Assembly: GCA_947650365.1 (NCBI GenBank) | Contig: OX393557.1 | Location: 33,297,099 to 33,361,098 of the forward strand | Direction of reading: 5' to 3' | DNA: 64,000 bases | Source: Chamaelirium japonicum | Taxonomy: Eukaryota > Streptophyta > Magnoliopsida > Liliales > Melanthiaceae | Shown: positions 48,401 to 51,400 of the stretch, piece by piece | Position numbering within the stretch: the stretch's first letter is position 1 | Layout of the letters: each line of letters opens with the position of its first letter | Program-made: the position numbers and the translations under genes | Notes under the pieces: generated by a model | Told to the model about the DNA's origin: nothing | Databases searched by the model: none | The model's input: the letters and a program-made list of their open reading frames with translations, nothing else

Positions 48401-51400
48401 GAACATAAATAAAATTAAGTGCTGAAATAAGGCCAAAAACATGAAAAAATGGCCAAAAACTGAAACAGACTGCTGACAAGTCCATACGGCTAATGTCATC
48501 CAAGGATAAAAATAAAAATGACTGTAAATAAAGGTCTCTGACGACGAACTGAAGATGCCGCGATGATCTGAAGGTGCTGATCAGGTCTTCATCAATCGCT
48601 TCTGCTGCGAAAAACTCGTCCTCGAGTTTACGCCGGACGACATATCGCCGGTATCAGGAGGGAGACCACCACCGTGGGAACGTCGCTGTGCCTGGATCTG
48701 GTGATGAATTCCCAACAAGTGATGTCTCGGGCAGTCAACAACCTCTGGGCCCCTCGCGAAGAGAGTGCTGGCGTCGAGCGAGGGCCAGAAGCTGCTGAAG
48801 TACATAAACAGAAGCACACGAGCGGTAGGTGGTCGGTCAGTCCCGACAAAGTCAAAGCGCGCAAGTGGCTCAGCTGTCTGAAACTCCCCAACTGGCTCTG
48901 ACTGTAGCTGTAATGGAAGCTCCGCGGAAGTCGAAGGCTCCATGGGTGTCTCTGCTATAGGAAGGACTGCAGGAGGAGGTGTCTCCTCTGTAAGCTCTGT
49001 GAAAGGCAGGAGAAGCCTCTCTATAGTCACTACCGGAGGAAGGGGCTCCTCTGTAGGCACTGCTGAAGGTGGACGGAACTCCTCTGGAGTCACTGAAGGA
49101 GGAGGTGGCACCTCTGTAGGCACTGGAGAAGGTGGAAGGAACTCCTCTGGAGTCGCTGACGGAAGAAGTGGCTCCTCCGTAGGCAGTGGACGAGGAAGCT
49201 CCACAGGAGGTGGATGCTCCTCAGGTGGTGCCATTGGTGGAACCGGGTGCTCCACAGGGGGTGGAGGCTCTGCTGGAGGTGGTGGCCTGCTGTATCTGGC
49301 AAGCCTCTGGTTCTGCTTCTCTCTCCATGCCAACTCATCCTCAATATCATCAAGTAAGAGCTGGGTTTCAATATATCTGAATTTCAAGGATGGCACTGAA
49401 GGACTCCGTAAAATCCATTGAACAAAAGGCTTGGAAGATAGATCTAGGTCATGGGCTCGATCTCGAATCAAAGAGGAGTATCTATGTTCCATCGGAGATC
49501 TCGGGAAAAGGGTAGGACATGGCCCAAAAGATTTATATAGTTTAACAAATTTTTTATAGGTGTGGGTATCTAATGGATCAAGCGAATAATGGGATCGGAC
49601 GCTATGATAGGACATGACGTCAGATTGCTCTGATACCAACTTGATACAGGCAAAGGTCTGACCTACACTAGGGTTTCAATGGAGAATTGGGAAAATCTGA
49701 AAAATCTATGCATGCACATAAAGCTTGGACTAAGATCTAACAAGTAGGGATACAATAATAACATGAAAACGAAATTCAGCATATACTAATATCATTCACA
49801 GCAAAAGATAGTCTGTTTAAAAGAGAGGCATGCATCAGAATTTAATAGAAAAGTAGGCTAAGTATGCTTGCTAGGGTTACCGACAGACTATAGATAGCAA
49901 ATCTAGTAAATAGGCATACGTCAGGGCTTCAACTAGCGATGAAAAGGGGAGATGACGGCTGCGATGCGGAACGGAGGCAATGGAAACAAAGAAAACGATG
50001 CGGATGCGATGGGGAAATAAGATAAAAGATAGATACTGCCTGGGGTTTTCCGTCGTGGGTCGATTGCAAGGATGTGCCGATGATCCTGCACACGGAGCAA
50101 GGCTGGAAGTCGGGAGAAACCGGAACCTTCGAAAAATCAACACCAAAGCCTTCGCGAGGCGAAGTCGCGGATGCGGCGAGGATCGGGGACACACGTCTCG
50201 CCCGGAAGCACTCACAAAGAGGCACAAATTTCAGCAACTATCAAAAACTGAATTCTCATTCTTTCTTCATCTTTTTGTAGGATTAGGGTTTTTGTTTTGA
50301 TGGTCAGGATCAAAGAAGAATAGGGTTTGGATGGTGGGGATGCAAGGGCTAAGAAAGGCAAGAAAAAGAGAGAGAAACAAGGGAGATAGGAGAGAGAAGA
50401 GAGGGACGACAGCAAGGGTCGGGCGGCCTCGGTTTCCGCACGGGTAAGGGGGGGGGGGCCGATCGGTTTCACGGGAAAAGAGAAGGGGGGGGCGGTGATC
50501 TCAATAGAAGCCCTATTGGGCTTAAGATAAGCCCACTTAAGCCCTAATTGAAGCCCATATGTGCCACGTCATCTAATTTGAGTTATTTTGTCATCTAACC
50601 GTCGGTTTCGAGATATAATCTCGTCCGTCGGTACCCCGCAAACACACGCACCCATAATTTTATTAATATCATGCAGAAACTCACCCGAGAAGACCTGGAT
50701 TCAATCCGAAAAGCCCTCGGATGAGATCATGGACATCCCCCATGAACTGGGCAAGAACATAAATAAAATTAAGTGCTGAAATAAGGCCAAAAACATGAAA
50801 AAATGGCCAAAAACTGAAACAGACTGCTGACAAGTCCATACGGCTAATGTCATCCAAGAATAAAAATAAAAATGACTGTAAATAAAGGTCTCTGGCGACG
50901 AACTGAAGATGCCGCGATGATCTGAAGGTGCTGATCAGGTCTTCATCAAAAATGGACTTAAAATAAGAAAGTTGTGCAAGTTTGAAATCGTACAAAAATT
51001 ATGCTGAAATGCAAAACACTGTTTTTTACTAAGTCTGAAAAAATGAATTTTTATAAAGAAAAGTTTTTATACATTCAAAATTTTCTTTGACGGACCATGA
51101 TTTTCTAGATGTACTTGTAGTTCTACATCTTGTGGAATTTTTTGAGCTAAAAATGAGTTGATTTAACCACTTTTCTCAACATACAAATTTTATGAAAAAC
51201 CGAAAAAACTATTTTCTCCTACTAAAACTGGAAACCTACTTTTTGATTCACTTGGTTTTTGATTTTTTTGATATTTTTATTGAAATCAAATGGGGGGGTT
51301 TTTAAGTAAGACGACATTTACTTAAATGTTATTATATGTAAATAAGCTGCTGAAACTGAAACCCCCAGTCCCCTTTTATAACCAGTCAGTCCCAATATGA

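Follow-up and report, generated by a model that had tools for sequence, protein, structure and literature searches.

A young non-autonomous Ty3/gypsy family in Chamaelirium japonicum, probably derived from a chromovirus, with one long open frame between LTRs of many lineages

Based on the analysis of a 64,000-nucleotide stretch of Chamaelirium japonicum contig OX393557.1 (here called the window) and comparison with further copies from the same genome, we propose that the gag-less LTR element in this stretch probably represents a young, high-copy non-autonomous Ty3/gypsy family that descends from a chromovirus, is moved in trans and has had its LTRs reshuffled around one interior. The copies consist of an LTR, an interior of about 1045 bp with a primer site, a 3' motif and one long open frame, and a second LTR.

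In the window the whole non-autonomous Ty3/gypsy element, delimited by an LTR pair, a primer-binding site (PBS) and a target-site duplication (TSD), extends over 39315..50948 on the minus strand and is split by a nested chromovirus. The boundaries of the original prediction are thereby retained, but about 8 kb of the span is chromovirus and the element itself measures only about 3.7 kb. Its 5' LTR (49642..50948, minus strand) has 1307 bp and reads TGATGAAG...CTGTATCA, while the 3' LTR lies in two pieces, the first at 48142..48594 and the second at 39315..40173 (both minus strand), the latter including one TSD copy of the nested insertion. The LTRs are thus about 1.3 kb each, around an interior of 1047 bp. 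Directly after the LTR follows the PBS (49627..49641, minus strand), which is identical by BLAST to that of the chromovirus at 15/15 positions and which we take to be of the tRNA-Met type. The motif CTCGAGGACGAG.. before the 3' LTR (48595..48626, minus strand) resembles, as judged by eye, the end of the chromovirus interior, and the element is flanked by the duplication ATTTT (39310-39314 and 50949-50953). The predicted LTR pair, primer site and perfect target duplication are accordingly all present. The two LTRs differ at 23 of 1302 compared sites, i.e. by 1.8% substitutions, which at the rate of 1.3e-8 substitutions per site per year cited for LTR dating (PMC5818461) would correspond to an element age of about 0.7 million years.

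Paired LTRs, PBS and target duplication identify an LTR retrotransposon, and protease, RT, RNase H and integrase are absent from its interior according to Pfam. The earlier description as integrated, non-autonomous and free of gag-pol is borne out, with no Pfam hit for pol domains and an interior that is one frame. TRIMs are very short elements with short LTRs, and an LTR of 1307 bp and a frame of 344 codons do not agree with that class. Assignment as LARD, a class with a long interior and no coding capacity, is precluded by an interior of about 1 kb with an open, putatively coding frame, and assignment as TR-GAG or semi-autonomous element by a frame in which gag was undetected by Pfam and profile comparison.

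The nested, younger chromovirus (40174..48136, plus strand, TSD GGCGG) lies inside the 3' LTR of the element. Profile matches cover gag, protease, RT, RNase H, integrase and chromodomain (Pfam; protease below the curated cut-off), and the coding region is divided into two frames by a single in-frame stop that precedes the integrase core. Since its LTRs differ at only 3 of 1395 compared sites, the chromovirus was inserted much later than its host element. The LTRs of element and chromovirus share 83% identity, and BLAST comparison of their interiors in the window revealed nothing significant beyond the 15-bp primer site. Elsewhere in the window, 3647-14339 holds three copies of a repeat of about 234 bp, probably an LTR, with two interiors of about 5 kb that are 96.5% identical between them, an array LTR-interior-LTR-interior-LTR as from recombination between LTRs. 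At 14644-15636, an inverted repeat of about 1 kb folds back onto itself with 90% identity, with related pieces up to 16608, followed by a G+C-rich open frame at 16760-17392 whose translation presumably represents the start of a plant hydroxyethylthiazole kinase (a thiamine-salvage-like exon). Two pol remnants on the minus strand, 28628-32188 and 57954-61394, are 73% identical and are, we assume, of copia-like type.

A search of the 1.52-Gb genome (3253 contigs) with the interior yielded 684 first-look candidates, the best 40 of which were scored (the window copy plus 39 others). These best 40 of 684 are 94.6-100% identical, the window copy included (94.65-99.24% for the other 39), and the full query is covered in 37 of them; being the most similar copies, they describe the low-divergence end of the family. 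When the 39 copies were taken with 1.6 kb on each side, LTR-related sequence was found on both sides of the interior in 39/39, and in the common form, seen in 36/39, an interior of about 1045 bp directly follows the LTR. Counted by hand in the 39 copies, 22 have an exact 5-bp TSD, three have one with a single mismatch, one has none (copy L039), and 13 are unjudgeable from a partial LTR match. The median divergence of the LTR pairs is 1.9% (31 copies). The family is therefore real, multi-copy, integrated and recent, in agreement with the original prediction, which is here extended by 39 further copies on many contigs. Unrelated interiors were seen in 0/39 of these copies, which were retrieved by interior similarity, but the expectation of an intact frame fails in 17/40. 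Across the LTR pairs 94 indels stand against 859 substitutions; the interior has far fewer singleton indels, but the score-based choice of copies works against indels. Two copies have an unusual arrangement. Ahead of the 5' LTR of L039 stands sequence resembling the interior end of another copy, which suggests a tandem array, and L032, which looks like a rearranged tandem, runs from an LTR end through a chromovirus-like leader and a 513-bp interior piece into LTR-end sequence, followed by a further leader and a complete interior.

The link to chromoviruses is stronger than the original prediction, which named a related chromovirus as a possible source of machinery, had assumed. In three of the 39 copies (L032, L038 and L043) a stretch of about 140-150 bp lies between primer site and frame, of which 135-139 bases align at 90-94% identity with the window chromovirus leader (41561..41701, plus strand, running from the PBS to about 35 nt before the gag ATG). 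This alignment stops about 35 nt short of the gag start. L032 carries the chromovirus-like leader twice, and the three leader-bearing copies also have an extra codon near the frame start. The other 36/39 copies, like the window copy, are without the leader, a point against the proposed explanation. The leaders of L038 and L043 have AGAGCAATCTGACG as their last letters ahead of the ATG, and in the leaderless window copy the primer-site AGAGC is followed by the same AATCTGACG as at the leader end of these two. Descent from a chromovirus is thus indicated by LTR identity (83%), the PBS (15/15) and the leader (90-94% in 3/39 copies), an assignment made without an RT by which the class could be set. 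In the simplest reading, the family would have arisen from a chromovirus in which the frame took the place of gag-pol, and the common form would then have lost the leader; alternatively, the leader may have been gained by recombination with a chromovirus instead of being ancestral.

LTR and interior have been inherited separately, so that one interior sits between LTRs of many lineages. For the 32 of 40 copies with an LTR pair stretch above 1100 bp (496 pairs), the mean distance is 0.052 between interiors and 0.159 between LTRs, and in 32 pairs with LTRs 20-25% apart the interiors are only 5.8% apart. On crossing from LTR into interior, diversity falls from about 0.24 to about 0.05. Internal branches account for 19% of the interior tree, and the interior and LTR data sets each reject the other's best tree (with a program warning that 5000 replicates are few). 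The interior distance is biased low because copies were retrieved by interior similarity, but the mismatch between the trees is not explained by that bias. Similarly, LTR type and interior are decoupled in the chromovirus: the integrase region is 98-100% identical over the best 40 of 749 candidates, whereas the LTRs are 84-99% identical to those of the window chromovirus in 20 fetched 3' ends, taken from 20 of the 39 other scored places (L048-L067). The chromovirus LTR set used for comparison also numbers 20, i.e. 19 of the 20 fetched plus that of the window, L055 being dropped for a split match. One chromovirus LTR, that of L059, looks mosaic, as its first 1006 bp are 96.6% identical to the window chromovirus LTR and its last approximately 850 bp are 95.9% identical to a solo LTR of the same LTR family in the window (54169-55556, TSD GCACT), which itself is about 84% identical to the LTRs of both elements.

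Between the element and this chromovirus lineage, exchange has at most been occasional, because the nearest neighbour of an LTR mostly belongs to its own class (52/52 over the first 200 columns, 45-49 of 51-52 further in). The closest element-chromovirus LTR pair is 10.9% apart, and BLAST detected no long near-identical tract between LTRs of the two classes (e.g. 90.4% over 533 bp for L035 and the window chromovirus). Tracts common to both were found in 12 windows, each with 110 or more compared columns, five in one element copy and seven in three chromovirus copies, as compared to 0 in each of 30 column permutations. These 12 short windows hint at LTR exchange between element and chromovirus.

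The interior of the window copy is filled by a 344-codon open frame (48581..49615, minus strand) that starts with an ATG 26 nt after the LTR, ends with a stop just inside the 3' LTR and measures 364 codons from stop to stop. Frame, N-terminal 16-residue stretch and PTEEP/TPEEF repeats are all present as predicted. The N-terminal part (codons 1-110; 49286..49615, minus strand) has 42% G+C and a low-confidence helical prediction, with helices at about 17-29, 42-56, 63-70 and 75-109 in AlphaFold models that are poor (mean pLDDT 48 and 55) and therefore unfit for a fold search. It is followed by a proline/glutamate repeat part (codons 111-262; 48830..49285, minus strand), in which a 63-bp unit occurs in 2.6 copies at 84%, by a C-terminal part in the frame common to the family (codons 263-322; 48650..48829, minus strand), and by the last residues, 323-344 (48584..48649, minus strand), which from codon ~324 are 2 bp out of the family frame. 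The interior has an open stretch of 348 out of 349 codons, a length attained by 0/5000 dinucleotide shuffles (mean 111, max 275). Considered by part, full openness is attained in 18/5000 shuffles for the N-terminal, 37/5000 for the proline and 1440/5000 for the C-terminal part, so that the last is unremarkable by itself. Only one frame is open across the N-terminal 110 codons.

Among the best 40 of 684 matches, 23 copies including that of the window have neither stop nor frameshift up to codon 322. The ending differs. At codon ~324, 37 of the 39 other copies are 2 bp shorter than the window copy, the exceptions being L009 and L010, and the latter, although free of the 2-bp difference, has earlier stops. 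As 21 of the 23 fetched copies that are open past codon 322 stop at scattered codons, 356-422, inside the LTR, the family is without a conserved stop; only L009 and, via a further frameshift, L038 stop at codon 344. The last approximately 20 residues of the window frame and its stop just inside the LTR are consequently not the ending of the family.

Selection was assessed by relocating each variant at random to positions in the frame with a matching trinucleotide context, with the window copy as reference, no ancestral sequence, and variants in more than half of the other copies left out; the P values are nominal, as 20 rows were tested and remain uncorrected. Variants present in at least two copies comprise 109 nonsynonymous, 58 synonymous and one stop against 113.2, 49.5 and 5.3 expected, i.e. 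an omega of about 0.81 (nominal P 0.071) and a depletion of stops, 1 versus 5.3, with a nominal P of 0.022. Omega is 0.64 for the N- plus C-terminal parts (nominal P 0.019) and 0.85 for the proline part (nominal P 0.25). Singletons have an omega of 0.84 (nominal P 0.098) and 14 stops as compared to 11.7 expected, and the plain ratio of nonsynonymous to synonymous variants is 45/23 = 1.96 for those in at least four copies and 212/105 = 2.02 for singletons, with 2.29 expected. Diversity differs little between the three codon positions of the N-terminal (0.053/0.039/0.061) and proline parts (0.061/0.050/0.056), and third positions of the C-terminal part vary somewhat more than the other two (0.031/0.037/0.067). 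Constraint was not seen in the internal repeats, where nonsynonymous and synonymous differences stand at about 2:1 in six unit pairs. The predicted recent selection on a protein is weakly supported by the depletion of stops (nominal P 0.022) and by the omega near 0.81 (nominal P 0.071), but the similar ratios in shared variants and singletons do not conform to it. These data fall short of proving a functional protein but hint that an open frame was retained in those copies from which others arose.

The strongest rival explanation, to which we assign somewhat less than an even chance, is that the frame is passive: the source copies happened to be open, the burst is too young for decay, and the interior works only as packaged RNA. 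The omega near 0.8 in both singletons and shared variants, the 17/40 broken copies, the absence of a conserved stop and the 2:1 ratio in the internal repeats are all compatible with such a frame, but no shuffle of 5000 is as open, shared stops are depleted (nominal P 0.022) and the N-terminal part is open in one frame only.

Searches for relatives of the frame bear on its origin. Pfam returned no significant match for the whole frame, gag included, and a single chance-level match for the N-terminal part (E 0.09), and NCBIfam gave none for the frame at E up to 10. Best matches among PDB sequences, E 1.2 for the whole frame and 0.37 for the N-terminal profile, are taken as chance, and none of the three pattern matches of the frame in IMG/VR was confirmed. 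When the N-terminal profile was compared with the frames of the window, a second such frame was not found (best other E 0.19), and matches of the proline part to other proline-rich frames of the window (BLAST, filters off) reflect composition and are not taken as homology. A captured host gene fragment that replaced the gag-pol of a chromovirus, comparable to the gene pieces found in other plant retroelements, would fit a frame without detected gag or pol similarity, a replacement that begins about 35 nt before the gag start, and a base composition that shifts along the frame. However, the best 40 of 684 interior matches are the window copy and 39 element copies, and we consider such a capture, which is compatible with either view of function, possible but doubtful. 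A degenerate or fast-evolving gag, with the N-terminal helices as capsid remnant, is far less probable: the low-confidence model is all-helical and known semi-autonomous wheat elements retain gag, but a Pfam gag match is absent and hhalign comparison with the gag of the window chromovirus, insensitive as it sets a shallow profile against one sequence, gave a probability of 0.3% over 12 columns. The original prediction would have failed had the N-terminus been a random slice of an ordinary gag; these searches detected no gag similarity. Finally, a chance frame or an assembly artefact at one locus, suggested by the single copy visible within the window, is refuted by the shuffles (0/5000) and by the other 39 copies, which are spread over many contigs and in 22 cases have an exact TSD of their own, and is almost inconceivable.

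Taken together, we propose that the family operates as follows. In an ancestral chromovirus, the frame would have taken the place of gag-pol from a point just upstream of the gag start; later, the common form would have lost its leader, perhaps via a slip between two AGAGC words. The element presumably retains the RNA signals for being copied in a foreign particle, i.e. LTR promoter and ends, primer site and 3' motif, and, as the shared PBS, LTR ends and descent suggest, proteins of related chromoviruses would package, copy and integrate its RNA. Template switching between co-packaged RNAs may then reshuffle LTRs and interior, placing a successful interior on many LTR types. Translation of the frame would provide a protein with a helical N-terminus and a proline-rich part, and source copies with an open frame may have been favoured, either for the protein, as an accessory of the particle or of the RNA, or because being translated helps or protects the RNA. 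That the frame is translated and that open source copies were favoured, for protein or for RNA benefit, has about an even chance on the sequence evidence, and the same applies to a protein function of the frame. The most far-reaching version, a gag-less retroelement that lives by one selected helical and proline-rich protein and whose interior swaps its LTR vehicles as a module and shed the leader, we regard as rather unlikely.

To our knowledge, machinery-borrowing elements are usually regarded as retaining either RNA signals alone or a gag. An element that maintains one unrelated protein frame in many copies would be a test of what a retroelement parasite gains from a protein of its own. Moreover, a uniform interior between diverse LTRs matters for the dating and classification of such families by LTR, and the fact that most copies have lost the leader raises the question of which RNA signals are needed.

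The element fits the known kind that lives on borrowed machinery, with RLG_Quinta and RLG_Sabrina of wheat and LTR swapping in soybean as closest precedents. A gag-less element filled by one proline-rich frame was not found described in the literature searched (titles and starts of abstracts); given these precedents, the designation as an undescribed element type in the original prediction is nonetheless too strong. For SNRE/SARE of soybean, LTR exchange has reportedly been linked to the amplification of a non-autonomous family (Du et al. 2010); the likeness drawn here is one of LTR exchange, and the present family differs in that a nearly uniform interior occurs with numerous LTR lineages. 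LARD, TRIM and TR-GAG elements are described as LTR elements without pol that presumably move in trans, LARD and TRIM being without coding regions and TR-GAG lacking pol only, whereas the present element has a non-gag frame (PMC5818461). Sharing of regulatory sequences by recombination is also reported for pararetroviruses in grass genomes (PMC5491270). In Arabidopsis, hybrid LTRs arise in bursts of ONSEN via template switching between co-packaged transcripts (PMC5668417); ONSEN is Copia-type, its members code for the usual proteins and recombination was seen experimentally according to that account, whereas here template switching is proposed from the comparison of copies. In wheat, transfer of LTRs by gene conversion or template switching has been proposed for Angela elements, and RLG_Sabrina and RLG_WHAM are non-autonomous gypsy elements, with at least seven Sabrina variants that have unique coding segments; both are described there as encoding GAG, unlike the element here, and are likened to it by the description of these segments (PMC9744471). 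RLG_Quinta of wheat, the non-autonomous gypsy partner of the centromeric, autonomous RLG_Cereba, is described as encoding GAG plus DUF1, whereas here gag is undetectable and the frame of unknown function makes up the whole interior (PMC11302176). In that account RLG_Quinta and RLG_Cereba nevertheless parallel the situation in C. japonicum, in that LTR termini and PBS are common to the partners and a domain of unknown function is carried (PMC11302176).
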